From Albidovulum marisflavi (GTDB lineage Bacteria > Pseudomonadota > Alphaproteobacteria > Rhodobacterales > Rhodobacteraceae): a stretch of 64,000 bases of DNA. Of this stretch, positions 889 to 24,690 are shown in pieces (the stretch's first letter is position 1; every line of letters starts with the position of its first letter). The stretch lies in NCBI RefSeq assembly GCF_025751435.1, contig NZ_JAOWKY010000001.1, positions 852,001 through 916,000 of the forward strand. The letters run 5' to 3'. The notes below the pieces were generated by a model. It saw only the letters and a list, made by a program, of their open reading frames with translations, had not been told where the DNA came from and made no database searches. The position numbers and the translations under genes were made by a program.

Positions 889-1057
889 GTCGTTTCGCGT
901 TGCCCGACAATCACGACCCAAACCGGTTTTCGGGCGTGATGGTGACGGTCTTGCCCAGTGCCAGCTCTTGCCGCCGCCGCCAGTCGATGCGGTGCCGTTC
1001 CCATTCCACCACCGTGACGATACGCTGCGGCAGCGCAGCTTGAAGGGCCTCCGCAGC

Positions 1058-6394: not shown

Positions 6395-6796
6395 GGCCGC
6401 TATCGTTTCCCCTCTGGCGCCGTTCGATCTGGCGCAGTGAAGAGGCCCATGAAGGGCGCTGTCCAGCGATTTTTCCCATATGAAAAGCACTTGGCGTCAG
6501 GGCCGCCCGAATTGTCAGGCCCGCGATGGCATTGCCGCAGTGAGTCGGACCGTCGCGCTGCTGGCCTTTCGTTTCTTGCTGGGCCACAATTTGTTGTCCG
6601 CGCGGCACTGTCGGTCGGACGTCGACAACCTGACGCAGCCACAAGCAGGAAGTCCCCATGCGCCACTGCCATCGATCCAATGGAATCATGGCCTTCCGCC
6701 GAAATCCATGCGGCCGGATCCGGCATCTCCGCGCCAAAGACTTGGAGCCGATCGCCCAGATGCTAAGATTTCAACCTGAGTGGGAAGTACGAGTGA
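6395..6796. other. Divergent intergenic control region between GT2 gene and PKS
   Basis: 402 bases without a convincing gene. It should hold promoters for the minus-strand glycosyltransferase and the plus-strand biosynthetic genes. Apart from the candidate PKS promoter I see no clear lux-box, riboswitch or strong hairpin. Short frames in it lack recognisable protein features. Confidence 0.5.
6742..6769 (+). promoter_or_regulatory. Candidate sigma70-type promoter of the PKS gene
   Basis: TTGGAG (6742-6747), a 16-base spacer and TAAGAT (6764-6769) lie 28 bases before the PKS ATG. This would give a leader of about 20 bases containing GGGAAG as Shine-Dalgarno. It is a pattern match by eye only. 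Confidence 0.35.
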
Positions 6797-9700
6797 ATGG
6801 CGAATATGTCGGAAGACCCCGTGATCGGCGAGAATGACATCGCCATCGTCGGAATGGCCGCGCATCTGCCGGGTGCGGCCTCGATCGACGACTACTGGCG
6901 GAACCTGAGGGATGGCGTCGAATCCATTCGCCGCCTGACCGAAGCGGAACTTCTGGCCGCGGGCGAAAACCCTGCACGGATGCGCGCGCCGAACTATGTC
7001 CCCGCCGCCGCCACGCTCGAGGGCTTCGAACGCTTCGACGCCGACTTTTTCGGCCTGTCGCCGAAGGAAGCGGCGATCATGGACCCGCAGCACCGCCAGT
7101 TCCTGGAAACCGCCTGGGAGGCAATGGAGAATGCCGGCCACATGCCCGAGGGTTTCGAGGGCCCGATCGGCGTCTACGCAGGCTGCGGGATGGGCAGCTA
7201 TTTCTATTTCAACCTCTGCTCGAACCCGGATCTGGTCAGATCCACGGGCATGTTCCTGTTGCGGCACACCGGAAACGACAAGGATTTCCTGTCCACCCGC
7301 GTCAGCCACATCTTCAACCTGACCGGGCCCAGCCTGTCGGTGCAGACTGCATGTTCGACCTCTCTGGTGGCGGTGCACATGGCGTCGCAGGCTCTGCTGA
7401 ACGGCGAATGCGACATGGCGCTGGCCGGCGGTGTGACGATCGAGATCCCCCATGCCCGCGGCTACCTTCATGCCGAGGGCGAGGTGCTGTCGCCCGATGG
7501 GCATTGCCATGCCTTCGACCACCGCGCGCAGGGAACCGTTTTCGGCTCGGGCGCGGGCTGTGTCGTGCTGCGCCGGCTCAAGGATGCGGTCGCGGACGGA
7601 GATCACGTCTGGGCAGTGATCAAGGCCAGCGCGATCAACAACGACGGCTCCGACAAGGCGGGATACCTGGCGCCCTCGGTCGATGGACAGGCCCGCGCCG
7701 TGGCCGAGGCTCATGCCGTCGCCGGTGTCGGCGCGGACACGATCGGCTATGTGGAGTGTCACGGCACCGGCACCTATCTGGGTGACCCGATCGAGGTCGC
7801 GGCCTTGACCCAAGCCTTCCGCAATACGACCGACAAGGCCGGATATTGCCGCATCGGGTCGGTCAAGACCAACATCGGCCACCTGGACACCGCTGCGGGC
7901 GTTGCCAGCCTGATCAAGACGTCGCTTGCGCTGCACCATCGGCAGCTTCCGCCCTCGCTTGGGTATGAAAAGCCCAATCCGGCCATAGACTTCGAAACCT
8001 CGCCCTTCCGCGTGAACGACCGGCTCAGCGATTTCCCGGCACTGGGCGCGCCGCGCCGGGCCGGCGTCAACAGCCTGGGCGTCGGCGGCACCAACGCCCA
8101 TGCCGTGCTGGAAGAGGCACCCATCCGCCCCGCCTCCGAAGACAGCGACTGGCCGTTCCATCTGCTGGTGCTGTCCGCCCGGTCCCGGTCCGCGCTTGAC
8201 GAGGCCAGCCAAAACCTTGCCGCGCACCTGCGGGCGCATCCCGAACAGCCGCTGGCTGACATCGCCTGGACGCTGAAGGAAGGCCGCCGCGCGTTCGACC
8301 GACGCCGCGTTGTCGTGGCCGAGACGCATGAGGAAGCCGTCAAACTGTTGGAAAGCGGCGAGCCGCGGCGCGTCTTCACCCATGCGCATATTGGCGACAA
8401 TCCCGAGATCGTGTTCATGTTCCCGGGTGGCGGCGCGCAATACGCCGGCATGGCGCGCGACCTTTATGAAACCGAACCGGTCTTCCGCGAATGGATGGAC
8501 AGGGGCATCGACCACCTGCAGCCCAAGCTTGACTACGACCTGCGCGCGCTTTGGCTGCCCACGGCCGATGGCCACGACGAGGCGGCCGAGCGATTGAAGC
8601 GCCCCTCGGTGCAATTGCCGTTGATCATGATCACCGAATACGCGCTGGCGCAGCTGTGGATCAGCTGGGGCGTCGAACCTGCGGTTCTTGTCGGCCATTC
8701 CATGGGGGAAAACACCGCCGCCTGCCTGGCGGGCGTCATGTCGTTCGAAGACTGCATCGGTCTTGTCCATCTGCGCGGCCAGCTGTTCGACACCATCGCG
8801 CCGGGCGGAATGCTGTCGGTGCCCATGAGCGCGGCACAGCTTGCGCCGATGCTGGGGCCCGATCTGGACATGGCCTCGGTCAATGCGCCGGATCTGTGCG
8901 TGGTTTCCGGCCCCCAGGCCGCCCTTGACGAGCTGGAAAAGACCCTGCGCGCGCACGAGTTTGAGCCGCAGCGGGTTCAGATCGACATCGCCGCCCATTC
9001 GCGGATGCTTGCGCCGATCCTTGAGCGGTTCGGCGACTACCTGCGCGCGATCCGGCTTTCCGAGCCGCGGCTTCCGATCATTTCGAACCGTAGCGGCAAG
9101 CTGCTGAGCGCGGTCGAGGCAACGGACCCCGGCTATTGGGTTCAGCACCTGCGCAACACCGTCATGTTCGCCGATTGCGCGGTAACGCTGATGGAAAAGC
9201 CGGGCCGGGTCTACCTTGAGGTCGGGCCGGGCCGCGCGCTGTCGTCGCTGATCCAGGCGAACGGCGTGCCGGCGAACCAGGTCCTGTCGTCGCTGCGCCA
9301 CCCCGACCACGAGCTTGCCGACGACATCTGGTTCATGACCACCATTGGCCGTCTGTGGGCGCTTGGCGTCCCCGTCGACTGGGCGCCGATCTGGGGCGAG
9401 GCCCGGCGCAATCGCCTGCCGCTTCCGACCTATCCCTTCCAGCGCCAACCCTACTTCATCGAGCCCGGCCATGCGGAACCGGTCGCGGAAGAAGCCTGGC
9501 CGGAACGGATCAAGGACATCGTCGACTGGGGCTGGAAGCCGCACTGGCGCCCGCGCGCCGCCGATTGCGAGGCGGAAGCCGACCAGCTTGCCGAGGCCAC
9601 CCGCCACGACTGGCTTGTCTTTGCCGACGACGTCGGGCTTTCTGACAGGATCGTGGCGCGGCTGCGCGGGGCAGGTCACAGGGCGGTCGAGGTCCGGGTG

Positions 9701-12700
9701 GGCTTTTCCTTTGCGAAGCTCGGGCAGGACAGCTACAGCATCTCGCCCGAGCGCGGACGCGTGGACTATGACCGCCTGCTGCAGGTGCTGGCGGCCGAAG
9801 GCTTCAAGCCCGACCGCATCGCGCACCTGTGGCTCGTGACAGACAGGCCAACCTTCCGGCTGGGCTCCAACTTCTTCATGCGCAACCAGGAGCAGGGCTT
9901 CCAGGCCTTGCTGTCGCTGGCACTGGCGATGGCGGAAGCCGATCTGCCGCAGCCGCTGCACCTGACCTGCGTTTCGACAGGCGCACAGCAGGTGCGTTCC
10001 GAGAAACTGCCCGATCCCGAAAAGGCCACGGCATTCGGACCCCTGCGCGTGATCCCGAGAGAGTTTCCGGGCGTCACCTGTGCCGCGCTTGACGTTGCCT
10101 TGCCGACCGGCCCGGCGCGGGAGTCCGGTTTGGACAGGCTGGCCGATCAGGTGATCGAGGATCTGATCGCAGCGCCAGCGAACCTGACCGCCGCGCTGCG
10201 CGACGGCCGCAGGTACGAACTGACTTGGCGGCCCGTCGCCCTTGACCCCGTCCAGACGCCGATCCCAGAGGGCGCGGTCTGCCTGATCACGGGCGGCTTC
10301 GGCGGGATCGGCCAGACCATGGCGGAACGTCTGGTCGGTGAACGGGGCGCAAGGGTCGCGCTTCTGACCCGGACCGCGTTGCCGCCCCGCGACACCTGGG
10401 AAGCCTATCTGCGCTCGGCCCCGCCGAAGGACGCCGCCGCCCGGCGGATCAGGGCGGTGCAGAAGCTCGAGGCGCTGGGAGCCAAGCCGCTGATCGTCGC
10501 CGGCGACGTGTGCAACCTGGAACACATGAAGGCCGTCAGGCACGAGGTCGAGCAGGCATTCGGACGGATCGATGTCCTGATCCACGCAGCCGGCGTCGTC
10601 GACGACGCGCCCATGCTGGCCAAGACGATCGAAAGCGTGGACGACGTCTTTGCGCCTAAGGTTCATGGCACACTGGTTCTGGACCAGGTCTTTCCGGACG
10701 GCAGTCTTGACCTGATGGTGCTCTTCGCTTCGACGTCGACGATCATCGCTCCGCCGGGCCAGGTCGATTACGTCGCCGCGAACGAATTCCTGAATGCCTA
10801 TGCCAGGTCGCGTTCGGGCGGCAAGACGCGGGTCAGCGCGATCAACTGGGGCATCTGGTCGGACGTGGGCATGGCGGCCGAGGCGCTGGCCGGTCCGGTC
10901 GACGCGCCAGTAGAGCCGGTCGACGCGCCGATGCTTGACGCGCGCACGCTTGACGGGGACGGCAACCGGGTTTTCACCGCGGCCTGGGACGAGTCACGCT
11001 GGTTCCTGGATGGTCACCGCACGAGGGACGGGCGGGCGATCCTGCCGGGTACGGGCTACCTGGACCTTGCGGCGCAGTCCTTGATGCTGCAGGGCGAGGC
11101 CGGGCCGTTCGAGATCCGCGACCTTTCCTTCCTCAGCCCGCTGGTGGTGCAGGATGGAAAGCCCCGAGAGGTGCGGGTCACGCTGGCGCCGGATGCCGAA
11201 GGCTATCGCTTCGAGGTTCGCAGCGACGTCGAGGTCGACGGCCGACGTGGATACGGACTGAATGCCGAGGGGCGCCTGTCCAGGGCGTCCAGGGCGCCCG
11301 CGCAGGTCGATGTGCAGCCGATCCTTGCGCGATGCACCACGAAGGCCGAAACCGGCAAGGGGCTGAGGTCGCCGCAGGAAGAGCATCTGGCGTTCGGACC
11401 GCGCTGGCGCGTGCTGGACCGGCGCGCCTACGGCAAGGATGAAGGCATCGCGCACCTGGCGCTGCCGCCTTCCTTCCGCTCGGACATGGAAAAGGGACAC
11501 CTTATCCATCCCGCGCTGATGGACCTTGCGACCGGCTGGGCGATGGACCTGATCGATGGGTATGAGCCGACCCATCTGTGGGTCCCGATGTCCTACGCTT
11601 CGATCTCGGTCTTCCGCCCGCTGCCGTCCGACATCGCGAGCTGGGTGCGCAATGCGGGCGACAATCGCGCCGACGCGCCTGCCGCGCTTTTCGACGTGGA
11701 CATCCTGGATGCCGAGGGCAACATCTGCATCAGCGTCCGGGGCTTTGCGATCCGCAGGCTTGAGCATGGCTTCGGATTGTCGCCAGCGACTCCGTCGCGC
11801 GACGTGGAGTTCCCGGATGGTGGCGACGGCGCGGCGCATCCCGTCTCTGCCGCCGAAGCGCGGCTACGCCACAACCTGACGCAAGGCATTCCCGCACGCG
11901 AAGGCGCCGAGGCGTTCGGCCGAGCGCTTGCCCTGGGGCTGCCGCAGGTCGTCGTTTCGTCGATGGACCTGCCGACGCTTGTCGCGCAGGCTGGCCAGTC
12001 GCCGGACACCGAGGGCGCGGCGGGGCCAGGCTTTGAGCGTCCCGAACTCGACAGCGCCTATGTCGAGCCGCGCACCGATATCGAGCGGACGCTGGTCGGG
12101 TTCTGGCAGGACCTGCTTGGCGTCGGACAGGTCGGCGTCGAGGACAGTTTCTTTGACCTCGGTGGCCACTCCCTGATCGCGGTACGGCTGTTCGCGATGA
12201 TCCGAAAGACCTACGCGGTCGATTTCCCCATATCCGTCCTGTTCGAGGCGCCGACGATCGCCACCTGTGCCGCGCTCATCGAAGAGCGCGTCGGACCGCA
12301 AAAGGGGGGCGCGGGAACTGCGGTCGCGCAGGCACCGTCCCGGCGCTTCACGCACATCGTGCCCATGAACCAGCATGAAGGCGGAACAAGGCCGCCGCTT
12401 TTCCTGGTGGCGGGCATGTCCGGCAACATCCTGAATCTGCGCGGCACGGCCAAGCTTCTGGGCGATGAATGGAAGTGCTACGGCCTGCAAGCGCGGGGCC
12501 TTTACGACGAGGACGCGCCGCACGAAAGCCTGGTCGACGCGGCACGGGACTGCCTTGCGGAAATCCGGCAGGTCCAGCCGCAGGGCCCCTACGTCCTGGG
12601 CGGCTACTCGGGTGGCGGACTGACCGCTTGGGAGATCGCGCGCCAGATCGAGGCCGAGGGCGACGAGGTGTCGCTTCTGGTTCTGCTTGATACCCCGCTT

Positions 12701-13192
12701 CCGGTGCGTCCGGAGCTAAGCCGCGCCGACCGGGTCATGATCAAGCTGAACCAGCTGATTGAAGGCGGACCCGCCTATCTTCTGCAATGGTACCGAGAGC
12801 GCAAAGCCTGGAAAGCGGCAGAGCGCGCCCGCGCTGCCGCCGGACCCGGAACCGGCCCGGAGGCGCTGTTGACCGCAGTCGAAAAGGCGTTCCTCAGGGC
12901 GGTGGTCAAGCTTGAACTGGCGCCACGGACGGGCAAGACGGTTCTGTTGCGGACGGGCAATGTCAAGCGCTGGAAGGCTTTGGGCGGGCGTTGGGTCGAT
13001 GCCGAAAGGTGTTATGTCCTGGACGACAACGGCATCGGGCGCCACGCCTCTGACCTGACTGTGATCGAAGTGCCGGGTGACCACGACACGATGGTTCTGG
13101 AACCCAATGTCAGGGTTCTGGTCCAGAAGCTGCGGGAGGTGCTGGACCACGCCCAGCCAGATGAGCGCCAGTGGCGCGCAGCGGCGGAGTAG
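6797..13192 (+). CDS. Type I polyketide synthase, KS-AT-KR-DH-ACP-TE
   Basis: 2131 residues. KS about 14-435 with complete Cys-His-His triad (TACSTS Cys186, ECHGTGT His322, KTNIGHLD His362). AT about 535-840 with GHSMGE Ser635 and His734 in IAAHSRM, most like malonyl-type but not the canonical HAFH. KR with GGFGGIG near 1165 and Tyr1325/Asn1329. DH about 1390-1650 with His1407 and Asp1576 (HPALMD). ACP with GGHSL Ser1792, and a type I thioesterase with GYSGG Ser1938, Asp1965, His2096. KR precedes DH, unlike the common KS-AT-DH-KR order. One module plus TE implies it finishes a chain, probably receiving a starter from the NRPS encoded downstream. ATG 6797 is used; 6806 is an alternative. Confidence 0.93.
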   Translation: MANMSEDPVIGENDIAIVGMAAHLPGAASIDDYWRNLRDGVESIRRLTEAELLAAGENPARMRAPNYVPAAATLEGFERFDADFFGLSPKEAAIMDPQHRQFLETAWEAMENAGHMPEGFEGPIGVYAGCGMGSYFYFNLCSNPDLVRSTGMFLLRHTGNDKDFLSTRVSHIFNLTGPSLSVQTACSTSLVAVHMASQALLNGECDMALAGGVTIEIPHARGYLHAEGEVLSPDGHCHAFDHRAQGTVFGSGAGCVVLRRLKDAVADGDHVWAVIKASAINNDGSDKAGYLAPSVDGQARAVAEAHAVAGVGADTIGYVECHGTGTYLGDPIEVAALTQAFRNTTDKAGYCRIGSVKTNIGHLDTAAGVASLIKTSLALHHRQLPPSLGYEKPNPAIDFETSPFRVNDRLSDFPALGAPRRAGVNSLGVGGTNAHAVLEEAPIRPASEDSDWPFHLLVLSARSRSALDEASQNLAAHLRAHPEQPLADIAWTLKEGRRAFDRRRVVVAETHEEAVKLLESGEPRRVFTHAHIGDNPEIVFMFPGGGAQYAGMARDLYETEPVFREWMDRGIDHLQPKLDYDLRALWLPTADGHDEAAERLKRPSVQLPLIMITEYALAQLWISWGVEPAVLVGHSMGENTAACLAGVMSFEDCIGLVHLRGQLFDTIAPGGMLSVPMSAAQLAPMLGPDLDMASVNAPDLCVVSGPQAALDELEKTLRAHEFEPQRVQIDIAAHSRMLAPILERFGDYLRAIRLSEPRLPIISNRSGKLLSAVEATDPGYWVQHLRNTVMFADCAVTLMEKPGRVYLEVGPGRALSSLIQANGVPANQVLSSLRHPDHELADDIWFMTTIGRLWALGVPVDWAPIWGEARRNRLPLPTYPFQRQPYFIEPGHAEPVAEEAWPERIKDIVDWGWKPHWRPRAADCEAEADQLAEATRHDWLVFADDVGLSDRIVARLRGAGHRAVEVRVGFSFAKLGQDSYSISPERGRVDYDRLLQVLAAEGFKPDRIAHLWLVTDRPTFRLGSNFFMRNQEQGFQALLSLALAMAEADLPQPLHLTCVSTGAQQVRSEKLPDPEKATAFGPLRVIPREFPGVTCAALDVALPTGPARESGLDRLADQVIEDLIAAPANLTAALRDGRRYELTWRPVALDPVQTPIPEGAVCLITGGFGGIGQTMAERLVGERGARVALLTRTALPPRDTWEAYLRSAPPKDAAARRIRAVQKLEALGAKPLIVAGDVCNLEHMKAVRHEVEQAFGRIDVLIHAAGVVDDAPMLAKTIESVDDVFAPKVHGTLVLDQVFPDGSLDLMVLFASTSTIIAPPGQVDYVAANEFLNAYARSRSGGKTRVSAINWGIWSDVGMAAEALAGPVDAPVEPVDAPMLDARTLDGDGNRVFTAAWDESRWFLDGHRTRDGRAILPGTGYLDLAAQSLMLQGEAGPFEIRDLSFLSPLVVQDGKPREVRVTLAPDAEGYRFEVRSDVEVDGRRGYGLNAEGRLSRASRAPAQVDVQPILARCTTKAETGKGLRSPQEEHLAFGPRWRVLDRRAYGKDEGIAHLALPPSFRSDMEKGHLIHPALMDLATGWAMDLIDGYEPTHLWVPMSYASISVFRPLPSDIASWVRNAGDNRADAPAALFDVDILDAEGNICISVRGFAIRRLEHGFGLSPATPSRDVEFPDGGDGAAHPVSAAEARLRHNLTQGIPAREGAEAFGRALALGLPQVVVSSMDLPTLVAQAGQSPDTEGAAGPGFERPELDSAYVEPRTDIERTLVGFWQDLLGVGQVGVEDSFFDLGGHSLIAVRLFAMIRKTYAVDFPISVLFEAPTIATCAALIEERVGPQKGGAGTAVAQAPSRRFTHIVPMNQHEGGTRPPLFLVAGMSGNILNLRGTAKLLGDEWKCYGLQARGLYDEDAPHESLVDAARDCLAEIRQVQPQGPYVLGGYSGGGLTAWEIARQIEAEGDEVSLLVLLDTPLPVRPELSRADRVMIKLNQLIEGGPAYLLQWYRERKAWKAAERARAAAGPGTGPEALLTAVEKAFLRAVVKLELAPRTGKTVLLRTGNVKRWKALGGRWVDAERCYVLDDNGIGRHASDLTVIEVPGDHDTMVLEPNVRVLVQKLREVLDHAQPDERQWRAAAE

Positions 13193-13196
13193 GGCT

Positions 13197-14192
13197 ATGG
13201 CAAGCGTTCTTGTGATCATCGTGAACTGGCGCACCGCCGAGATGACGCTGGCCGCGGCCGAAGCCGCTCTGGCCGCGATGGAGGGGATACCCGGTGCGAT
13301 CACCATCGTCGACAACGATTCGGGCGACGGGTCCGAGGACATTTTGCGCGCCGGTATCGCGCGGCGCGGCTGGAACCGGGTGCGCGTGATCCAGTCCGGA
13401 CGGAACGGCGGCTACGGCGCAGGCAACAACGTCGGCATCCGCGCGGGTCTGCCGGACGGAAGCAAGCCTGACTACGTCCACGTCCTGAACCCGGATGCGT
13501 TCCCCGCGCCCGGCGCCATCCGTGCGCTGGTGGCCCACATGGAGCGCCACCCCGAAGCAGGCGTCGCCGGCAGCTACGTCCATGGGCCCGACGGGGTCCC
13601 GCACGCCTCTGCCTTCCGGTTCTTCAGCATCGGATCCGAGTTCGAGGACGCGGCCAAGACGGGGCCGATATCCCGGCTTCTGGCCAACCGGATCGTGCCG
13701 TTGCCGACGCCGACAGAAGCCACGCGCGTGGACTGGGTCACGGGCGCCTCAATGATGCTGAGGCAGTCGGTGCTGGATCGCATCGGCCTGTTTGACGAAG
13801 CGTATTTCCTGTATTTCGAGGAAACCGACCTGTGCCTTCGCTTTGCGCGGGCGGGCTACGCGACGGACCATGTCCGGCGCAGCGAGGTGACCCACATCGG
13901 ATCGGTCTCGACGGGGATGAAATCGCTGGCGCGGGTTCCGGCCTATTGGTTCGACAGCCGCTGGCGCTATTTCGCCAAGAACCACGGCCGGGCCTATGCC
14001 TTCGCGGCGACGGGCGCGCGCGTGGCGGGGGGGCTTCTTCTAGGGCTGAGGCGTCTGGTCGGCAGATGCGCCCAGCAAAATCCGCCGTACTTCCTGCGCG
14101 ACCTGTTGGCGCATGGGATGAAGGCGGGCTGCAGGGCGGTCGCGCCCGAACGGGGAACCAGGACGCAAACGCCAGTTGGGAGCAAGACATGA
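13197..14192 (+). CDS. Glycosyltransferase family 2 (rhamnosyltransferase-like) between PKS and NRPS
   Basis: 331 residues. GT2 landmarks: VLVIIVNWRTAEMT at the start, IVDNDSGDGS, NGGYGAGNN, HVLNPDAFPAP as the metal-site region, and a VTGASMMLRQ segment followed by YFEETDLCLRFARAGY, typical of the rhamnosyl/WcaA-like subgroup. The start ATG at 13197 lies four bases after the PKS stop; upstream in-frame sequence overlaps the PKS and is rejected. Its stop overlaps the NRPS start in an ATGA, so it is translated as part of the biosynthetic operon. This strongly suggests the product, or the carrier it ends on, is glycosylated. Sugar and acceptor are unknown. Confidence 0.88.
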   Translation: MASVLVIIVNWRTAEMTLAAAEAALAAMEGIPGAITIVDNDSGDGSEDILRAGIARRGWNRVRVIQSGRNGGYGAGNNVGIRAGLPDGSKPDYVHVLNPDAFPAPGAIRALVAHMERHPEAGVAGSYVHGPDGVPHASAFRFFSIGSEFEDAAKTGPISRLLANRIVPLPTPTEATRVDWVTGASMMLRQSVLDRIGLFDEAYFLYFEETDLCLRFARAGYATDHVRRSEVTHIGSVSTGMKSLARVPAYWFDSRWRYFAKNHGRAYAFAATGARVAGGLLLGLRRLVGRCAQQNPPYFLRDLLAHGMKAGCRAVAPERGTRTQTPVGSKT

Positions 14193-17100
14193 CGCGGTTT
14201 TCCGGCCTGTTCGTCGGCAACGAATCCCTGTTGATCCAGTGCTCCGAAACCTGGCTGGCCGCGGGACACGGGATCGCGGCGATCGTCACGCGAAATCCCG
14301 AGATCGCCCGCTGGGCGAATGATCGCGGGCTTCGGGTCGAGGCGCAGGATGCAGGGCTGGCGGAGCGAAGCGCCGACCTGTCCTGCGACTGGTTGTTTTC
14401 GGTCGCGAACCTGCACGTCCTGCCCGAGCCTCTGATCCAGACCGCGAAACGCGGGGCAATCAACTTTCACGATGGACCCCTGCCACGGCACGCAGGTCTG
14501 AACGCCCCGGTCTGGGCAATCCTGGAAGGCGAAAAGCGCCACGGGGTCGCCTGGCATCTGATCGAAGGCGGCATCGACGAAGGCGCGATCCTGGAGACGC
14601 GCGAATTCGACATTGCGGACGCGGAAACCGCGCTGACGCTGAACGCGAAGTGCTTCGAGGCGGCGATAGATAGCTTTGGCACGCTGGTCGCCGCGATCGG
14701 CGCGGACGATCTTCACCCGCGCGACCAGGACCTTGCGCTGCGCAGCTGGCATGCCCGCGCCGACCGGCCGCGCGCCGCGGCGCGCCTGGATTTCTCACAT
14801 TCCGGCGAAGATGTCGTGCGTCTTGTCCATGCGCTTGACCATGGCGGCTACTGGAATCCGCTGGCGCTCCCCAAGATCGTAGCAGCGGGGCGGGTCCTGG
14901 CCGTCGGCTCTGCCGAAACGGCGCCGGGCGACGCCAGCCCGGCCGGCACCGTCCTGGCGGCGGATCGGGCGGGGCTTACAGTTGCCTGTGGTCGCGGGGC
15001 GGTCACCATCGGGGCGCTGAGGGACATGGACGGGAACGCGGTCTGCCCGATTTCTCTTGCCGCTGTGGGGCAGACGCTTCCCGCGCTGCAACCGGACGAG
15101 GCAGACCATCTGAGCGCGGCCATGGCCGCGATTGCCTCCGGCGACGGCCATTGGCGCGAACGGTTGCGCGCGCTTCGTCCTGCCGCGCTGCCCTTGGCGG
15201 CCGAGCCGGAACATGCCCCCGACTGGCAGCGGATCGGGTGCGACATCGCGGATGGCGACCCGGCGCGGGGCGCGGCGGCGCTGGCGCTTTTCGCCCGAGC
15301 CTACGGCGGAGATGAGCCTGTCGACGTGGCGCTGCGCCTTGCCGGAGCGCCTGCCGCCGACGGATACCTTTCGCACTGGGTCCCCCTTCGCGCGGGGCAA
15401 AAAGCGACGGCTGGCTCTTTCCTGGACGCGTTCAAGCGTGATCTTGCCCGCGCGATGAGGTGGCCCGCATTCGCGACCGATCTGCCGCTGCGCGACCCGG
15501 ACATGGGCCGGGTGACGCAGCCAGACATCGCGCTGAGCCTTGGGGCGGACGCGCCGTTGACAGGTAGCGTCCTGACGCTGGCGATTTCGGGCGACGGTGC
15601 GGCCCTGCATTTCGATGCGACGCGGCTTGACGCCGGCTGCGCGGAAATCCTGGCGGCGCGCATCGCGCATCTGGCAGACGCCCTGGGTGCGGCACATGGC
15701 GACCCGGTCCTGACGACCCTGTCCGCGATGCCCGAAAGCGAACGCACCCTGCTTACCAAGGACTGGAACCGCACCGCAGCCGGCTACGACGCCGCCCTTT
15801 GCGTGCACGAGGCATTCGAGGCGCAGGCCGCGCGCACGCCGGATGCCGTCGCCCTTATCCACGAAGACAAGAAGCTGAGCTATGGCGACCTGAACGCGCG
15901 CGCCAACCAGGTCGCGCATGTGCTGATGGACATGGGCGTCGGGCCGGGAACGCTGGTCGGCCTTTGCACGGGACGTTCGCCTTTGCTGATGGTCGGCGCG
16001 CTGGCGATCCAGAAGGCCGGAGGGGCCTATGTGCCGCTGGACCCATCCTATCCCGCCGACCGTCTCGCGCTTTATGTCGAGGATTCCGCCTGTCCTGTCA
16101 TCGTGACCGAACGCGCGCTTTCGCAAACGCTTCCGCATAGCGCCGCCGCCATCCTGCGGCTGGACGACGACCCGCGCATCGCAAAGGCATCGGGCGACAA
16201 TCCCGGCAGCGGGGTCACGGGCGATGACCTGGCTTACATGATCTACACCTCGGGCTCTACCGGACGGCCCAAGGGCGTGATGATCGAACATCGCAACGTC
16301 CAGAACTTCTTCACCGGCATGGATGCGCATATCCGCTGCGATCCCCCGGGCACATGGCTTGCCGTGACCTCGCTCTCCTTCGACATCTCGGTGCTTGAGC
16401 TGTTCTGGACGCTTGCGCGCGGGTTCCGCGTGGTGATCATGGGGGACGCGGACCGGGCGCTGGTGTCGGGGGGAAGAACGCCGGTGTCCGCCAAGGGCAT
16501 GGACTTCAGCCTTTACTACTGGGGCAATGACGACGGGGCGGGGCCTGCAAAGTACGACCTTCTGCTTGAGGGCGCGAAATTCGCGGACCGGCACGGCTTC
16601 TGCGCGGTCTGGACGCCCGAGCGGCACTTCCACGCCTTCGGGGGCCCCTATCCCAACCCCTCGGTCACGGGCGCGGCAGTGGCGGCGGTCACGCGCAACC
16701 TTGCGGTGCGGGCAGGGTCCTGCGTCGCGCCGCTGCATCACCCGGCCAGGATCGCCGAGGAATGGGCGGTCATCGACAACCTGACCAACGGGCGCGCCGG
16801 GCTGGCCATCGCCTCGGGCTGGCAGCCCGACGATTTCGTGCTCAGGCCCGAAAACACGCCCCCCGAGAACAAGCCCGCGATGTTCGACGCGATCGACAAG
16901 GTCCGCCGTCTGTGGCGCGGCGAGGCGGTCGAGTTCCCGACGGCCTCGGGCAAGCCCTTTGCCGTCGTGACCCAGCCCCGGCCCGTGTCGAAAGAAGTGC
17001 CGATTTGGGTCACGACCGCGGGCAATCCCGAAACTTGGCGCGAGGCCGGGGCGGCGGGCGCGAACATCCTCACCCATCTGCTTGGCCAGTCGGTCGACGA

Positions 17101-18784
17101 GGTGGGGGGCAAGATCAAGCTGTACCACCAAGCCCTGCGCGAAGCCGGACACGATCCGGCCGATCACACCGTCACCCTCATGCTGCACACCTACGTTGCG
17201 GCGAATCGCGATCACGCGCGCGAAACGGCGCGGGGACCGATGAAGGATTACCTGCGCTCGGCGGCGGGGCTGATCAAGCAATACGCCTGGGCCTTTCCGG
17301 CCTTCAAGAAGCCGCAGGGCATGACCAACCCGATGGAGATCGACCTGCGCTCGTTGACCGAGGAGGAAATGGAGGGTGTGCTGGACTTCGCCTTCCAACG
17401 CTATTTCGAGGATTCCGGCCTGTTCGGCACGGTCGAGGACTGCGTGGCAAGAGTCGAGGAACTGAAGCGCATCGGCGTGGGCGAGGTCGCCTGTCTGATC
17501 GACTACGGCATTCCCGTTCAGACGGTGCTTGAGGGGCTGGTGCCGCTGGCAGAGGTTCTTCGTCGGACCAACGCGGCCGCGACCGAAACGGAAAAGGACT
17601 TCTCGATCGCCGCCCAGATCGCGCGCCACGGGGTCACCCATCTGCAATGCACCCCATCCATGGCACGAATGCTGGCCATGAACCCGGAGTCGCGGTCGGC
17701 GCTTGCGTCGCTCAAGGAGCTGATGATCGGGGGCGAGGCCCTGCCCGGCGCGCTGGTCGCCGACCTTGCCACCGCGACGGAGGCGCGCATCCTGAACATG
17801 TACGGCCCGACGGAAACCACGATCTGGTCGGCGGTCGACCTGGCCGAGCCGGGCATGGCGGTCTCTCCGGTCGGGCACCCGATCGCCAACACGCAGTTCT
17901 ACGTCCTCGACGCCTCTGGCGATCCTGCACCGATGGGCGTCGCAGGCGAGCTGTGGATCGGCGGCGATGGCGTGGCGCGCGGCTATTGGAGGCAAACCGG
18001 GCTGACTGACGACCGCTTCCGCCCCGATCCCTTCACGGGCGGGCGGATGTATCGCACCGGTGACCTGGTGCGGCAGCGATCCGATGGGCGCTTCGATTTC
18101 CTCGGCCGCATCGACCACCAGGTCAAGATCCGCGGCTACCGGATCGAGTTGGGCGAGATCGAGGCCGCCGCGGTCGAGATGCAGGGCGTGCGGCAGGCTG
18201 TCGTCCTGGCGCGCGAAGACGTGCCGGGTGACGTGCGGCTGGTGGCCTATGTGACCACGGAGCCGGGCCTTTCGCCCGAGGCGCTTGGGGCGCATCTGAA
18301 GGTGCGCCTGCCGGCGCACATGGTCCCCGCCCATGTCGTGCCGCTGGACGAAATGCCGCTGACGCCGAATGGCAAGGTCGACCGCAAGGCACTGCCCGCG
18401 CCCGCCGCCGTCACCGCGCCGAAGGTTGCCGAAGCCATCCGCGTGGCACCGTCTTCCGGTGCGGAGGAGACGATCGCGGGCATATGGCGCCGCATTCTCA
18501 ATCTTCCGGCTGTGGGCGCGGAGGACAATTTCTTTGCCCTCGGTGGGCATTCGCTTCTGGCGGTGCAGGCGCATCGCGAAATCAGGGATGCGATGGGGGC
18601 GTCGACACTGTCGATCACCGACATCTTTCGGTTCCCCACGCTTTCGGCCCTGGCGCGGCACCTGGAAACGCCGCAAGCCTTCGAGCCGCGCATCCACATT
18701 GCCGGGGGCGCGAACGATCGCGCGGCGCAGAGGTCCGACGCGATGTCAAAGCGCCGCGCGCTTCGCGCGAACCGGGGGGCATGA
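14189..18784 (+). CDS. NRPS: formyltransferase - partial C - A (with inserted luciferase-like monooxygenase) - PCP
   Basis: 1531 residues. Residues 1-200 are a formyl-THF transferase domain with the Asn92-x-His94 ... Asp130 triad (INFHDGPLP, GGIDEGAIL), spaced as in methionyl-tRNA formyltransferase. About 350-520 looks like only the C-terminal half of a condensation domain; no HHxxxDG is seen. The A domain starts near 537 (YTSGSTGRPKG near 681, FDISVLELFW near 730), is interrupted at about 770-1125 by a MupA/Atu3671-type FMN monooxygenase, and resumes with CTPSM, MYGPTETT and NGKVDRK. The hand-read specificity code D-I-L-Q-M-G-M-I-W-K is close to the glycine code DILQLGLIWK. PCP Ser1455 lies in GGHSL. 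There is no TE. It looks like an initiation module. ATG 14189 has GGGAG upstream. Confidence 0.93.
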   Translation: MTRFSGLFVGNESLLIQCSETWLAAGHGIAAIVTRNPEIARWANDRGLRVEAQDAGLAERSADLSCDWLFSVANLHVLPEPLIQTAKRGAINFHDGPLPRHAGLNAPVWAILEGEKRHGVAWHLIEGGIDEGAILETREFDIADAETALTLNAKCFEAAIDSFGTLVAAIGADDLHPRDQDLALRSWHARADRPRAAARLDFSHSGEDVVRLVHALDHGGYWNPLALPKIVAAGRVLAVGSAETAPGDASPAGTVLAADRAGLTVACGRGAVTIGALRDMDGNAVCPISLAAVGQTLPALQPDEADHLSAAMAAIASGDGHWRERLRALRPAALPLAAEPEHAPDWQRIGCDIADGDPARGAAALALFARAYGGDEPVDVALRLAGAPAADGYLSHWVPLRAGQKATAGSFLDAFKRDLARAMRWPAFATDLPLRDPDMGRVTQPDIALSLGADAPLTGSVLTLAISGDGAALHFDATRLDAGCAEILAARIAHLADALGAAHGDPVLTTLSAMPESERTLLTKDWNRTAAGYDAALCVHEAFEAQAARTPDAVALIHEDKKLSYGDLNARANQVAHVLMDMGVGPGTLVGLCTGRSPLLMVGALAIQKAGGAYVPLDPSYPADRLALYVEDSACPVIVTERALSQTLPHSAAAILRLDDDPRIAKASGDNPGSGVTGDDLAYMIYTSGSTGRPKGVMIEHRNVQNFFTGMDAHIRCDPPGTWLAVTSLSFDISVLELFWTLARGFRVVIMGDADRALVSGGRTPVSAKGMDFSLYYWGNDDGAGPAKYDLLLEGAKFADRHGFCAVWTPERHFHAFGGPYPNPSVTGAAVAAVTRNLAVRAGSCVAPLHHPARIAEEWAVIDNLTNGRAGLAIASGWQPDDFVLRPENTPPENKPAMFDAIDKVRRLWRGEAVEFPTASGKPFAVVTQPRPVSKEVPIWVTTAGNPETWREAGAAGANILTHLLGQSVDEVGGKIKLYHQALREAGHDPADHTVTLMLHTYVAANRDHARETARGPMKDYLRSAAGLIKQYAWAFPAFKKPQGMTNPMEIDLRSLTEEEMEGVLDFAFQRYFEDSGLFGTVEDCVARVEELKRIGVGEVACLIDYGIPVQTVLEGLVPLAEVLRRTNAAATETEKDFSIAAQIARHGVTHLQCTPSMARMLAMNPESRSALASLKELMIGGEALPGALVADLATATEARILNMYGPTETTIWSAVDLAEPGMAVSPVGHPIANTQFYVLDASGDPAPMGVAGELWIGGDGVARGYWRQTGLTDDRFRPDPFTGGRMYRTGDLVRQRSDGRFDFLGRIDHQVKIRGYRIELGEIEAAAVEMQGVRQAVVLAREDVPGDVRLVAYVTTEPGLSPEALGAHLKVRLPAHMVPAHVVPLDEMPLTPNGKVDRKALPAPAAVTAPKVAEAIRVAPSSGAEETIAGIWRRILNLPAVGAEDNFFALGGHSLLAVQAHREIRDAMGASTLSITDIFRFPTLSALARHLETPQAFEPRIHIAGGANDRAAQRSDAMSKRRALRANRGA

Positions 18785-19458
18785 TGCCGGCCGCGCAGGC
18801 AGAGATGGTCGAGTTGACACGCGGGTTGCTTCCGGGCCCGGTCGCCGTCTGCGCCAGCCGCATCGGTCCCGATGATGCCGGGCTCTGGCCGGTCGAGGCC
18901 GACGCGATGCGACGCGCGGTTCCACGCAGGCGCGCCGAATTCGCGGCGGGCAGGTTGGCCGCGCGCAGGGCGATGGCCGAGCTTGGCCAGACGCCCGGCG
19001 CCATACCGATGCGACACGACCGGTCGCCCGAATGGCCTGCGCGGCTGACCGGATCGATCACGCATGCCGGTGGCCTGGCGCTGGCCGCCGTGGCACGCAC
19101 CGACCAGGTGGCGGCGATCGGCATCGACGCCGAGCCTGATGAACCGCTTCCCGAAGGGCTTCTTGGGCTCATCTGCAGAGCGGAAGAGCGCGCTTGGTGC
19201 GCCACGACACCGGATCCCGGGCGCGCGGCACGGCTGATCTTCGCGGCCAAGGAAGCCGCCTACAAGTGCCAGTACCCGCTGTCCGGCAAGCTTTTCGGCC
19301 ATGAGGCTCTGCGCATCACGGTTGGGGGTGCCGGCCGCTTGACAGCCTGCTTCATGCAGCCCGCCGGCCCATTCGCCGCGGGCGAGACGATGGCGGGCCA
19401 GGCCGGCTGGCGCCACGGCATGATCATCGCGGCCTTTTCAGTGCCGCTTGGGCACTGA
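18781..19458 (+). CDS. 4'-phosphopantetheinyl transferase (EntD/Sfp superfamily)
   Basis: 225 residues. It moves phosphopantetheine from CoA onto carrier-protein serines. The magnesium-binding GIDAEP motif (Asp116, Glu118) and FAAKEAAYK (Lys157, Glu158, Lys162) are the family signatures; the WPVEADAMRR and RRRAEFAAGRLAAR regions match the EntD group. The ATG overlaps the NRPS stop (ATGA), with a second ATG three bases on. It is the obvious activator of Ser1792 in the PKS and Ser1455 in the NRPS, making the operon self-sufficient for carrier modification. Confidence 0.93.
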   Translation: MMPAAQAEMVELTRGLLPGPVAVCASRIGPDDAGLWPVEADAMRRAVPRRRAEFAAGRLAARRAMAELGQTPGAIPMRHDRSPEWPARLTGSITHAGGLALAAVARTDQVAAIGIDAEPDEPLPEGLLGLICRAEERAWCATTPDPGRAARLIFAAKEAAYKCQYPLSGKLFGHEALRITVGGAGRLTACFMQPAGPFAAGETMAGQAGWRHGMIIAAFSVPLGH

Positions 19459-19470
19459 GAGGGCAGGCAC

Positions 19471-20448
19471 ATGCGTAGAAACCTGATCCTTTTCGGTCTT
19501 GCCGCCGCCGGTGCGCTTGTCGCCGGCGGTTTGGCCTGGCATCGGCTGCGCCGCGATCCGACGCTGCCCCCGGCGCGCCGGCCAATGCCCCGGTCCGAGT
19601 TCCAAGGCCTTTACGACCGCCCGCTTGCGCCGCCCAGCGGGCCGCTACGCGTGTTTCACCTGGGGCATAGCCTGGTGGGCCACGACATGCCCGCCATGCT
19701 TGCCCAGCTCGCCGGGCCGGGCCATCGCTACGAAAGCCAGATAGGGCGCGGCACCACGCTGCGCGCGCACTGGGAAGATGACATTCCCATCGAGGGATAT
19801 GCCGAAGACAATGCCCATGGCCGCTTCCGCCCCGCCAAGGAGGCGCTTGAAAGCAGCGACTACGACGCGTTCATCATGACCGAACGAGTGGATATCCGGA
19901 CCTCGATCCGGGAAGAGGGCAGTGCCGCTTATGTCGCGCTGTGGGCAGAGCTTGCCCGCCGGGGAAATCCCGACACGCGGGTCTACCTCTACGAGACCTG
20001 GAATTGGCTGAGCGTCGAGGATGGTTGGCTGGAGCGTATGGACGGCGACCTTCCGCGCTACTGGATCGATGACATCCTGCGCGGCGCGGCAGCCTATCTG
20101 GGCGGCGCTCCGATCTACGTGATCCCGGCTGGCCAGGTCCTGGGTCGCGTGACCCGCGCCGCCGAAGCCGGACAGGTCGCTGGCATCGCGAGCCGCGAGG
20201 ATTTCTTTGCCAGGACCGCGACGGGGGAACTGGACAGGATCCACATCGGGGACCTGGGGGCATTCGTGGTGGCGCTTGCGCATCATGCGGTTCTTTACCG
20301 GACAAGGCCCCCGGGACTTGACGCGGAAATGCGCAGGGCCGATGGCACGCCTGCCGATCTGCCCGACGAACTGGATCGCGCGGCACTATGGTCGATGATC
20401 GAAGAGGTCGTCGGCGGCTTGCCGGAAACAGGAGTTGGACGGGTTTGA
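19471..20448 (+). CDS. Membrane-anchored SGNH/GDSL-hydrolase-like protein
   Basis: 325 residues. Residues about 5-22 are a hydrophobic segment after MRRN, an uncleaved anchor or signal, so the bulk is periplasmic. VFHLGHSLVGHD puts a candidate nucleophile at Ser67, and DRIH near the C-terminus (Asp255, His258) matches the DxxH block V of SGNH esterases. Such enzymes add or remove acyl groups on polysaccharides. It is 12 bases after the PPTase on the same strand, suggesting a late tailoring step on an exported product, such as acyl transfer or hydrolysis on the glycan. Substrate unknown. Confidence 0.7.
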   Translation: MRRNLILFGLAAAGALVAGGLAWHRLRRDPTLPPARRPMPRSEFQGLYDRPLAPPSGPLRVFHLGHSLVGHDMPAMLAQLAGPGHRYESQIGRGTTLRAHWEDDIPIEGYAEDNAHGRFRPAKEALESSDYDAFIMTERVDIRTSIREEGSAAYVALWAELARRGNPDTRVYLYETWNWLSVEDGWLERMDGDLPRYWIDDILRGAAAYLGGAPIYVIPAGQVLGRVTRAAEAGQVAGIASREDFFARTATGELDRIHIGDLGAFVVALAHHAVLYRTRPPGLDAEMRRADGTPADLPDELDRAALWSMIEEVVGGLPETGVGRV

Positions 20449-20521
20449 CCGGCGATAGCAGCCACAGACGTCAGCCCCTCGATAGGCGGAACGACGAAGC
20501 GGATCGAAAGGCAGAGTTCTG

Positions 20522-22195
20522 ATGCCCAACACCTTCGCCTTCCTCGTGCTTTATTGCTGGCCGGTGGTAATCATCTTCCTGTTCGCCGCCCTGCCCAGAT
20601 CCTTCGCCATCGCGATCTCGATCATCGGGGGATACCTGATCCTGCCGGTTCAGACGGGGATCAACCTGCCGATGCTGCCGACGCTGGACAAGTCCCTGCT
20701 GCCGTCGCTGTTCACGGGCATCATGTGCCTGCTGATGGTGGATGGCCGCGCGAACAACGCCCGCCGCATGCCGGAAAGGCGCATCGAACCGGAGGCGGCC
20801 CAGATCGCCGAAACGGGGGACATGCCGCCGCGGGCGTCGCCGATGTTTTCCCGCCAACCCGTCCGCGCCAGGGTTCAAGGGTCAACCGCAGGGCCGGACA
20901 ACGACGCAGCCCTTCCCGCGACCCTTTCGGCCCCGCCCTTTGGGACAGCCCCCCTGTCGAGCCCATCCGGGACGGCGCAGTCCAGCGCGGCCCTGCGCGC
21001 CGTCCTTCTGGCGCTTCTGGCTCTGACGATGATCTCGCCCGTCGCGACCGTGCTTTCGAACCCCGAACCCCTGTTCTTCGGTCCCACGATGCTGCCGGGG
21101 CTCCGGTTGTACGATGCCGCCTCGATGGCGATGACGGTCGGGGTCCACATGCTGCCCTTCGTCATCGGATGGCGCTATCTGGGCGGGACGCGGGAACTTG
21201 GCCACCTTGTTCTCGTCCTGGCGATTGCCGGGCTGTTCTATTCTCTTCCCGCCCTGTTCGAGGTCAGGATGAGCCCGCAGCTGAACACCTGGATCTATGG
21301 CTTCTTCCAGCACTCGTTCCTTCAGCACATTCGCCAAAGCGGTTACCGTCCGATCGTCTTTCTTGGGCACGGCCTGGCGCTGTCGATCTTCCTGGCCCAG
21401 ACCTTTTTGGCCGCGATCGCCCTATGGCGCGCACGCCAAGACGTGCGAAACTCCGGCGTGCATTGGCTGCTTGGCTCCGCCTGGCTTTTCCTTGCGCTGG
21501 TCCTTTCCAAGTCGCTTGGCGCGCTTGCCATCGCGACCGTGTTCGGACTGATCCTGATGATTGCAGGCAAGCGGTCGGTCGTCCTCTTCGCGGCGGTCGC
21601 CATCGCGTTCGTGACGATCTATCCGGTTCTGCGTGGCAGCGGCCTTGCCCCCGTGCAAGGTGTGTACGACTTCGCCAAGGCAGTCGATGTCGATCGCGCG
21701 GAATCCTTCAAGTTCCGGCTGGACAACGAAGATGCGTTGCTGGACCGCGCCAACCTCAAGCCGATGTTCGGTTGGGGAAGCTGGGGGCGCAACCGGATCT
21801 TCGACCCCGACACCGGAGAGGACAGGAGCGTCACCGATGGCGACTGGATCATCACGATCGGCGTCTATGGATGGGTCGGCTATCTCAGCAAGTACGGGCT
21901 CTTCGCCCTTCCCGTCATGGCGCTGGCGTGGCGGCGCAGGGCCACGCAGTTGACCTTCGCGGCCTGCGGCCTGTGCATGATACAGGCCGCCAACATCCTT
22001 GACGCGATCCCGAACGCCACGATCGTGCCGGTGACCTGGCTGATCGCCGGAGCGCTCGCCGGGTTCGCTTGCCGTGGCGCGGCGGGCGTCGGGCCTGCGC
22101 CGGCGCAGCCGCCGCGGCATCGACAAGCGCGACACGCCGGCGTCGGGCAAGGCCGAACCCAGCCGGCGGCGCGCTTGACGAGAACGCGCGACTGA
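20522..22195 (+). CDS. Multi-spanning membrane protein, Wzy/WaaL (O-antigen polymerase/ligase)-like
   Basis: 557 residues with many hydrophobic segments: two at about 5-70, then a polar Pro/Ser/Ala-rich stretch at about 75-155, then eight or more to about residue 525, and a basic Pro/Arg-rich tail. A long polar loop with FKFRLDNEDALLDRA, MFGWGSWGRNRIFD and TDGDWIITIGVYGWVGY resembles the periplasmic loop of O-antigen polymerases and ligases (a motif such as GWGxG...D.....GxxG). It would polymerise or ligate lipid-linked glycans. Position at the end of the glycan/PKS/NRPS run fits. The hydrophilic insert after the second segment is unusual for the family. Confidence 0.72.
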   Translation: MPNTFAFLVLYCWPVVIIFLFAALPRSFAIAISIIGGYLILPVQTGINLPMLPTLDKSLLPSLFTGIMCLLMVDGRANNARRMPERRIEPEAAQIAETGDMPPRASPMFSRQPVRARVQGSTAGPDNDAALPATLSAPPFGTAPLSSPSGTAQSSAALRAVLLALLALTMISPVATVLSNPEPLFFGPTMLPGLRLYDAASMAMTVGVHMLPFVIGWRYLGGTRELGHLVLVLAIAGLFYSLPALFEVRMSPQLNTWIYGFFQHSFLQHIRQSGYRPIVFLGHGLALSIFLAQTFLAAIALWRARQDVRNSGVHWLLGSAWLFLALVLSKSLGALAIATVFGLILMIAGKRSVVLFAAVAIAFVTIYPVLRGSGLAPVQGVYDFAKAVDVDRAESFKFRLDNEDALLDRANLKPMFGWGSWGRNRIFDPDTGEDRSVTDGDWIITIGVYGWVGYLSKYGLFALPVMALAWRRRATQLTFAACGLCMIQAANILDAIPNATIVPVTWLIAGALAGFACRGAAGVGPAPAQPPRHRQARHAGVGQGRTQPAARLTRTRD

Positions 22196-22287
22196 TCGCC
22201 CGGATCCAAGCTGCTGATGGGCCTTGACGAAGCGGCCCGCAGCCCGCGAAACTTCGCGCGGGTGGGGCAACGGGGCAGGGCCGCTGG

Positions 22288-23589: not shown

Positions 23590-23615
23590 GCGTCATCGCC
23601 TCATGACCTGTCCGA

Positions 23616-23644
23616 TTGCATTTCGCCCCTGACCGGACTATCTG
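23616..23644 (+). promoter_or_regulatory. Candidate promoter of accD
   Basis: TTGCAT (23616-23621), a 17-base spacer and TATCTG (23639-23644) lie 35 bases before the accD ATG in the 89-base gap after the oxidase gene. Pattern match by eye only. Confidence 0.35.
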
Positions 23645-23678
23645 GAACGCCTGAAAAGGAAGAGCGGGATCACAAGAG

Positions 23679-24605: not shown

Positions 24606-24634
24606 GTTCTTCTTTTCCCAAATATCCTCGGGGG

Positions 24635-24661: not shown

Positions 24662-24690
24662 TTACCCCGGCCAAGCGCTACGAGGCTGAC

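Follow-up and report, generated by a model that had tools for sequence, protein, structure and literature searches.

An NRPS-like module with an N-terminal formyltransferase and a monooxygenase inside its adenylation domain, encoded in glycan loci of Rhodobacteraceae and relatives

What does a giant enzyme that combines formyltransferase, adenylation and monooxygenase domains contribute to a glycan locus? This question is raised by a 64,000-nucleotide stretch of the Albidovulum marisflavi genome, the whole of which was analysed and is called the window here. The gene is one plus-strand open reading frame (ORF) of 1531 aa (14189..18784), with its ATG at 14189 and its TGA at 18782-18784. Pfam and TIGR04020 matches, together with an 80-protein alignment, gave the domain order formyltransferase (FT), C-lobe remnant of a condensation (C) domain, adenylation (A) domain split by a luciferase-like FMN monooxygenase (LLM), and peptidyl carrier domain (PCP). 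The alignment comprised the window protein and its counterparts from 79 of 80 relatives' loci; locus L088, which has no complete family ORF, was left out. Since the same architecture recurs in relatives and the Pfam E values are low, chance is ruled out. An earlier note had read the gene as an NRPS with a formyltransferase start and a monooxygenase inside its A domain, and this reading was confirmed, with TIGR04020 and Formyl_trans_N both placed in a single protein. Mean identity to the window protein was highest in the LLM (0.89 to 0.90 at residues 801-900) and lowest in the C-lobe region (0.31 to 0.40 at residues 301-550). A minus-strand ORF at 14795-18697 was rejected as a high-GC shadow ORF, its GC1 exceeding its GC3, unlike the plus-strand gene.

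The FT domain (residues 1-284; 14189..15040, plus strand) matched Formyl_trans_N at residues 52-157 (E = 1e-14) and Formyl_trans_C at residues 197-284 (E = 1e-5), and its fold is like that of Fmt and ArnA. The catalytic triad that had been proposed, Asn92, His94 and Asp130, proved exact and is kept in 80/80 aligned proteins. When a model of residues 1-544 was submitted to Foldseek, formyltransferase-fold proteins were among the best 50 matches. The domain is equally near to the sugar-formylating ArnA and to Fmt, which acts on methionyl-tRNA; homology to LgrA is detectable and weaker.

The FT and A domains are not directly joined. Between them lies a remnant of about 180 aa, made up of a condensation C-lobe and C-A linker without the HHxxxDG half (residues ~361-544; 15269..15820, plus strand). 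Its identity rests on a profile comparison with McyB (E = 6e-16) and on hhalign (97.1%, E = 7e-11), because the best 50 Foldseek matches gave formyltransferase folds; a Pfam search with five single sequences of the stretch returned no match. The FT, which precedes A-PCP in a protein that has no working C domain, occupies roughly the position of a C domain's catalytic half. A search for PF00668 (Condensation) gave no Pfam match in the host genome at E 0.001, whereas four of the 14 control genomes gave matches in the identical search. By this genome search, the window set is not a complete NRPS, since no condensation domain to form a peptide bond was found. Relatives with a full C domain, arranged as C-A(LLM)-PCP, occur in Streptomyces and Nostoc, the Nostoc protein having the same A-domain code. 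The condensation remnant had been overlooked by the first reading.

AMP-binding matched in two pieces, the best at residues 543-756, with E = 1e-87 over the whole protein. The first part of the A domain (residues 543-756; 15815..16456, plus strand) holds A4, and the second (residues 1132-1396; 17582..18376, plus strand) holds A5 to A10 and AMP-binding_C (residues 1323-1396). The LLM (residues 773-1123; 16505..17557, plus strand) scored 486.7 bits against TIGR04020, for which the cut-off is 244.45, and matched Bac_luciferase at residues 781-1097 (E = 4.5e-49). It is flanked by FDISVLELFW (731-740) and NMYGPTETT (1203-1211), so the claimed position between the A4 and A5 parts was borne out. The carrier domain (PP-binding, residues 1428-1492; 18470..18664, plus strand) has a serine, S1455, that is invariant in all 80 aligned proteins. 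Read by motif, the A-domain code is DILSMGMIWK, with S at position 278; nine of its ten positions are kept in at least 79 of the 80 proteins and the fifth (M) in 65. We take this code to resemble those for glycine.

Which atom the LLM oxidises can be approached through its relatives. The best PDB match of the LLM was PuwE (6ket, E = 6e-102). Published accounts propose that the PuwE Ox domain alpha-hydroxylates an acyl chain in puwainaphycin; for myxothiazol, melithiazol and solanimycin B, they describe MOx/FMO domains that sit within glycine A domains and hydroxylate the C-alpha of glycine. These LLM/MOx precedents act on carbon, so N-hydroxylation, one of two products suggested before, gained no support and was dropped as first choice. 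The other, alpha-hydroxylation, is the oxidation that the precedents back, on the glycine C-alpha or, in puwainaphycin, on the acyl alpha-carbon. Several database records label this gene just "MupA/Atu3671 family FMN-dependent luciferase-like monooxygenase". A 2022 paper terms SSE37_17955 and ISM_16730 uncharacterised; these are roseobacter genes of the NRPS-like LLM kind, likened to it here by description only.

The gene belongs to a tight plus-strand cassette. A type I PKS of 2131 aa (KS-AT-KR-DH-carrier-TE; 6797..13192) is followed after 4 bp by a family 2 glycosyltransferase (GT2) gene (13197..14192), which shares an ATGA overlap with the NRPS-like gene; a 4'-phosphopantetheinyl transferase (PPTase) gene (18781..19458) overlaps the stop codon of the latter. 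On the relatives' genome contigs, this order of four genes is kept in 71/80 loci, and the PKS is present in 79/80. The ORF that follows in Aliiroseovarius M344 and in genome G144 is a longer one, KS-AT-KR-DH-ACP-C-A-PCP-TE, which indicates that the FT module stands first in line. In the PKS, the DH motif reads H-x4-G-x4-P instead of H-x3-G-x4-P, and GHSMG and AAHSRM are unusual AT motifs; neither the type of ketide nor its oxidation level is fixed by them. The earlier view of one module that activates, oxidises and formylates one residue stood as far as its parts go, with FT triad and carrier serine conserved; it was incomplete, since the module is tied to the PKS, GT2 and PPTase. The PKS upstream and the PPTase downstream had both been missed. 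A long antisense ORF on the minus strand (6686-10666) failed the GC3 filter and was set aside as a shadow ORF.

The cassette sits in glycan loci of the Wzx/Wzy type. Upstream in the window are a weak RTX-repeat protein (19..888, plus; E = 0.0013, below cut-off), a family 2 glycosyltransferase (968..1906, plus), a WecG/TagA-type glycosyltransferase (2198..3007, plus), a UDP-GlcNAc 2-epimerase (3004..4155, plus) and a further family 2 glycosyltransferase (5396..6490, minus), as well as a weak GH127-like protein (4156..5343, plus; E = 8e-6). Downstream are a candidate membrane-anchored SGNH-like esterase/acyltransferase with no Pfam match (19471..20448, plus; GHSL at 65-68, D255, H258) and a Wzy/O-antigen-ligase-like membrane protein below the Pfam cut-off (20522..22195, plus). 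A single PF13440 flippase is encoded in the host genome, about 1.5 kb ahead of the window. The position beside glycan genes noted earlier is common: recurrent glycan gene families, named from one representative each, occur in 74/80 loci, and two or more such families in 68/80. Of the six loci with none, four are on contigs shorter than 14 kb and another spans 18.5 kb, but locus L044 has none within its 25 kb. A Wza in the host locus was rejected, since no PF02563 match lies near the window and the two in the host genome lie elsewhere. XrtD adjoins the cluster in Ruegeria conchae and the longer variant in Aliiroseovarius; the host genome has no match to the exosortase family PF09721, so an exosortase link was rejected as a general feature.

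The gene set is present in about one-third of the sampled related genera. Out of 394 family genomes, 136 combine FT and LLM, and 132 of these have the PKS as well. Of the 142 genomes that have the LLM, 135 also have the PKS, which shares a contig with it in 125; of the 252 that lack the LLM, 3 have the PKS. The label "roseobacter" used before does not reach far enough: Defluviimonas sp. WL0075 (80-81%) was the closest relative found, and Hydrogenophaga and rhizobial relatives also carry the NRPS-like gene. The parts of the module are of known kinds. The suggestion that their combination may be undescribed held in the open-access literature searched, which showed no description of the FT-LLM-A combination or its product, the accessible parts of PMC10127204 and PMC4062626 holding nothing specific. 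In close relatives, the same architecture is widespread, and no characterised product was found.

In our judgement, there is about an even chance that the NRPS-like protein is the initiation module of a short NRPS-PKS line serving a surface polysaccharide. Domain architecture, conservation of the catalytic residues, gene order and the link with glycan genes are observed; the steps that follow are predicted. Read from sequence, the enzyme probably loads glycine, caps it with a formyl group, oxidises it and passes it to the adjacent polyketide enzyme. It may have originated as a C-A(MOx)-PCP elongation module that lost the catalytic half of its C domain and gained a formyltransferase. The PPTase would arm the carriers, and the split A domain, given its glycine-like code, would load glycine onto S1455. 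The architecture suggests that the FT would then N-formylate glycyl-PCP from 10-formyl-THF, standing in for the upstream peptide supplied by a C domain. By homology with relatives that act on N-acylglycyl-PCP, the embedded monooxygenase would hydroxylate the alpha-carbon of N-formylglycyl-PCP. The starter passed to the KS would be N-formyl-alpha-hydroxyglycyl, intact, or glyoxylyl after loss of formamide; the real starter is uncertain, since N-formyl-alpha-hydroxyglycine thioesters could fall apart. The PKS, which the two variant loci place after the FT module, would add at least one ketide, reduce it and perhaps dehydrate it before release by the TE. Gene context suggests that the acyl or glyco-acyl product would join the exported glycan, decorating or priming the polysaccharide; the operon GT2, and perhaps the SGNH-like protein too, would attach or trim this product. 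A fuller version is more tentative: many Rhodobacteraceae, along with some Hydrogenophaga and rhizobia, may carry a polysaccharide in which N-formyl-alpha-hydroxyglycine or glyoxylyl primes the NRPS-PKS acyl group of the repeat unit or anchor, the FT having replaced the C catalytic half and feeding the in-domain oxidase an N-acylglycine.

Other products can be imagined. Hybrid NRPS-PKS lines usually yield small molecules, and the pair might make a secreted pigment, siderophore or signal, with the TE suited to release, the GT2 to glycosylation, and the glycan genes serving as neighbours or glycosylation genes. The longer variant of Aliiroseovarius M344, which adjoins nos genes and XrtD and whose 36-kb stretch has no annotated gene for glycan synthesis, favours such a product. 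We consider it rather unlikely, however, given the glycan families that recur in 74/80 loci and the same pairing beside glycan export genes in Aminobacter and rml genes in Ruegeria; moreover, the scanned representatives of part of the recurrent families included no usual NRPS-cluster transporter or regulator. Quite improbable, in our view, is that the FT formylates an amino sugar, as do ArnA, WbkC and QdtF, while A(LLM)-PCP provides an acyl donor unrelated to it. By fold and by sequence, ArnA and sugar N-formyltransferases rank with the best matches, and the locus makes sugars, with a UDP-GlcNAc 2-epimerase gene among its members; but Fmt scores equally well, the FT lies roughly where a C catalytic half acylating the loaded amino group would be, and the window genes scanned included no amino-sugar aminotransferase.

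The third alternative concerns the starter: the true output may be glyoxylyl-PCP, formyl cap and alpha-hydroxylation merely expelling formamide, as in amide expulsion of the myxothiazol type. Myxothiazol and melithiazol MOx modules are described as cleaving after hydroxylation and leaving T-bound glyoxylate. Solanimycin B, by contrast, is described as retaining alpha-hydroxyglycine, and it would cost less to load a two-carbon acid directly; we regard this outcome as unlikely. If the polysaccharide-serving initiation module is real, a surface glycan would be supplied by assembly-line chemistry in about one-third of the genera sampled from a large family, and a common gene that several records annotate just as a MupA/Atu3671 family monooxygenase would be explained. 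It would also be a natural case of an elongation module turned into a starter by a half-domain swap, and a compact system in which to study an oxidase that sits within an A domain.

Among the closest known systems, RkpA and WcbR are PKSs of rhizobial and Burkholderia capsule loci (PMC3908369), and the window likewise has a type I PKS among polysaccharide genes, the comparison being one of setting and not of KS sequence. The window PKS has an NRPS-like FT/LLM partner; none is named for RkpA/WcbR in the accessible text of PMC3908369. The PuwE Ox domain (6ket), the closest solved relative of the window LLM, is flanked by PKS and NRPS modules and has a fatty acyl chain as its substrate, whereas the window LLM lies inside an A domain. 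In LgrA, the F-A-PCP initiation module of linear gramicidin, a formyltransferase of detectable homology likewise stands at the N-terminus, followed by A and PCP. The F of LgrA is joined directly to A, whereas the window protein has the C-lobe remnant between FT and A, an LLM in A and a glycine-like code; furthermore, its partner is a PKS and its setting a glycan locus. A flavin monooxygenase embedded in the A domain is shared with the glycine modules of MtaG/MelG, SolF and crz-like clusters, the TIGR04020 score given above being that of the window protein alone. Those modules serve elongation or termination and have a C domain, as described for SolF. MtaG also has a C domain, and its monooxygenase is inserted between A4 and A5. 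In contrast to the MtaG/MelG and SolF modules, the window protein has its C domain cut to the C-lobe and an FT added.

The open reading frame (ORF) at 14189-18784 (+) encodes a protein of 1,531 amino acids (aa). Within it, Pfam and NCBIfam models recognise Formyl_trans_N/C, an AMP-binding domain in two parts, a luciferase-like monooxygenase (LLM), AMP-binding_C, and a carrier domain. The LLM matched TIGR04020 with 486.7 bits (cut-off, 244.45) over residues 773 to 1123, between A4 (FDISVLELFW, 731) and A5 (NMYGPTETT, 1203). The earlier note had expected TIGR04020 and Formyl_trans_N in a single protein and had given the LLM about these boundaries, and both claims were borne out. A second, separate luciferase-like monooxygenase gene (26049-27098; Bac_luciferase E, 2e-50) lies near a folC-like gene and scores 75 bits, under the TIGR04020 cut-off. 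The window protein was aligned with those of 79 of 80 loci from relatives' genome contigs; the remaining locus, L088, has no complete ORF of the family and was left out. The formyltransferase (FT) triad of N92, H94, and D130, correctly picked out from the sequence beforehand, was invariant in all 80 proteins, as was S1455. The ten-position adenylation (A)-domain code is DILSMGMIWK, with nine positions conserved in 79 or 80 of the 80 proteins and the fifth occupied by M in 65. Set against known codes, it appears glycine-like, with position numbering assigned from motifs. On average, the proteins are closest to the window protein within the LLM (identity, 0.89 to 0.90; residues 801 to 900) and least close at residues 301 to 550 (0.31 to 0.40).

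This least conserved stretch includes a region, residues about 361 to 544, that gave no Pfam match in any of the five single sequences tried. A profile built from 17 relatives matched the C-terminal end of condensation (C) domains (McyB, E 6e-16; TycB; Txo; PvdL), with LgrA as a weak match. In profile-profile comparison with three C domains (loci L112, L115, and L116), 178 columns aligned to C-domain positions 251 to 475 (97.1%, E 7e-11). Since both kinds of match cover the C-terminal part of C domains, the region is, by sequence, a C-domain C-lobe lacking the HHxxxDG half, a feature absent from the earlier note. Searched with PF00668, the host genome gave no match, while 4 of the 14 control genomes did. 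An AlphaFold2 model of residues 1 to 544 (pLDDT, 85.7) matches Fmt and ArnA over about 310 to 320 columns. Plasmid-borne relatives in Aminobacter, Aliiroseovarius, Ruegeria, and Methylobacterium carry the NHD triad and the code DILSMGMIWK or DILSLGMIWK. Among proteins with a complete C domain, one from Nostoc shares the window protein's code, and one from Streptomyces has DMVSLGMVWK. These data fit descent of the gene from a C-A(LLM)-PCP elongation module.

Upstream lies a polyketide synthase (PKS) gene (6797-13192) with KS, AT, KR, DH, carrier, and TE domains. A GT2 gene (13197-14192) begins 4 bp after it and shares an ATGA overlap with the NRPS-like gene, whose stop is overlapped by a PPTase gene. 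These four genes occur in window order in 71 of the 80 loci; the PKS and GT2 were each found in 79 and a PPTase directly 3' in 73, with part of the missing genes falling at contig ends. The set leans toward close relatives, since it was drawn as the best 80 of 289. Of the PKS ORFs in 79 loci, eight of ≤1,900 aa were left out, and the other 71 were aligned with the window PKS. Invariant across all 72 are the KS cysteine and histidines, the serines of the AT, carrier, and TE domains, and the histidine and aspartate of the DH. The DH motif is longer than usual by one residue, and the motifs of the AT are atypical. In Aliiroseovarius M344 and in genome G144, a single ORF encoding KS-AT-KR-DH-ACP-C-A-PCP-TE comes next after the FT-A(LLM)-PCP gene; this longer variant was seen at 16004-29743 of locus L112 and 4558-18249 of L127. 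The first 1,742 residues of the M344 ORF share 37% identity with the window PKS, and the TE regions partly align. This supports a predicted assembly order of FT module, then PKS, then TE.

We surveyed the family through 394 genomes, close to one for each genus: 142 had the LLM, 141 the FT, and 138 the KR-DH segment of the PKS. FT and LLM co-occurred in 136 (on a single contig in 131 and on separate contigs in 5), and all three were present in 132. Of the 142 genomes with the LLM, 135 have the PKS, which shares the LLM's contig in 125; of the 252 lacking the LLM, 3 have the PKS. Because few PKS candidates were scored per genome, these co-occurrence counts are minimum values, and one genome tallied as PKS negative (G023) does have the PKS. 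The other genome belonging to the window's genus lacked FT, LLM, and PKS alike. In 398 genomes from across the phylum, the FT matched at 1e-20 in 17. Ten of these belong to the family and 4 to the class (frames of 1,491 to 1,558 aa); the other 3 are G586, G731, and G747. In a quick, midpoint-rooted tree, copies from Hydrogenophaga (Betaproteobacteria; L033 to L039 and L092) form one clade among Paracoccaceae sequences, and this placement suggests transfer between classes. A copy in a metagenome-assembled genome titled Exiguobacterium profundum (L105) also groups with Paracoccaceae; that record is probably a mislabelled bin. In genome G097, the copy (L125, 6190-16512) lacks the LLM in an A domain with unchanged code, the alignment shows other residues in place of the whole FT triad and the carrier serine, and the PKS has an in-frame stop. 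This single case looks like joint decay of one system.

Recurrent neighbor families, each named from one representative, are Wzy-like, Wzz, Wzx, GT2, GT4, WecG, ParA-like (BY-kinase-type), sugar transferase, and acyltransferase. Of the 80 loci, 74 contain a recurrent glycan family, and 68 of them contain more than one; the six loci with none comprise four on contigs of <14 kb, one 18.5-kb stretch, and L044 (25 kb). The window holds genes for a UDP-GlcNAc 2-epimerase, WecG, three GT2s (one that of the cassette), and a Wzy-like protein, and the sole PF13440 flippase of the host genome lies about 1.5 kb before it; no Wza was found near the locus. Directly 3' of the Wzy-like gene is an FAD-dependent amino-acid-oxidase-like (DAO) gene (22288-23589). 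The locus is flanked by housekeeping genes: those for a pfkB-type kinase and an endonuclease-III-like protein precede it, and accD- and folC-like genes follow. In Aminobacter, the cassette genes, with the PKS divergently oriented, accompany polysaccharide export, flippase, and O-antigen ligase genes, and rml genes accompany the cassette in Ruegeria conchae. XrtD (VPLPA-CTERM exosortase) is close to the cluster in Aliiroseovarius (L112) and Ruegeria (L113); PF09721 had no match in the window's genome.

An SGNH-like domain occurs near the cassette in two forms, as a membrane-anchored protein (19471-20448) and as part of large proteins. The former carries a helix at its N terminus and the pattern GHSL...DxxH; its structural model (pLDDT, 91.7) shows weak similarity to SGNH-type esterases and to an LPS acetyltransferase domain from Salmonella (6se1), with E about 5e-4 and TM-scores of <0.6. 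Searching the loci with its iterated profile gave 45 ORFs, of which 16 are ≥600 aa. RTX repeats were present in the scanned representative of one family of large neighbors (e.g., L108 and L110).

From architecture, homology, and context we infer, in all six steps of our best explanation, that the protein would be an initiation module making N-formyl-alpha-hydroxyglycyl-PCP for the PKS, whose acyl product would go to a surface polysaccharide. Here the formyl group would replace the upstream peptide, so that the oxidase would receive an N-acylglycyl-PCP. This proposal draws on precedent oxidases that act in glycine A domains and on the nonribosomal peptides formylated by an F domain, counted as three in a 2022 review (PMC8949500). 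In myxothiazol/melithiazol, the monooxygenase in a glycine A domain is described as hydroxylating the glycine alpha-carbon, after which the amide is lost and T-bound glyoxylate is left (PMC11342130). For solanimycin B, the same carbon is reported to be hydroxylated by an A-domain-embedded monooxygenase, with alpha-hydroxyglycine retained (PMC10204066). The closest solved relative of the LLM is PuwE, for which acyl-chain hydroxylation has been proposed (PMC4219810). A 2022 paper called two roseobacter NRPS-like LLM genes uncharacterised (PMC9769649), and type I PKSs in capsule loci are already known (RkpA/WcbR; PMC3908369). No description of the protein's product, and no described counterpart of its whole architecture, was found in the open-access literature searched; the parts joined in it are of known kinds.
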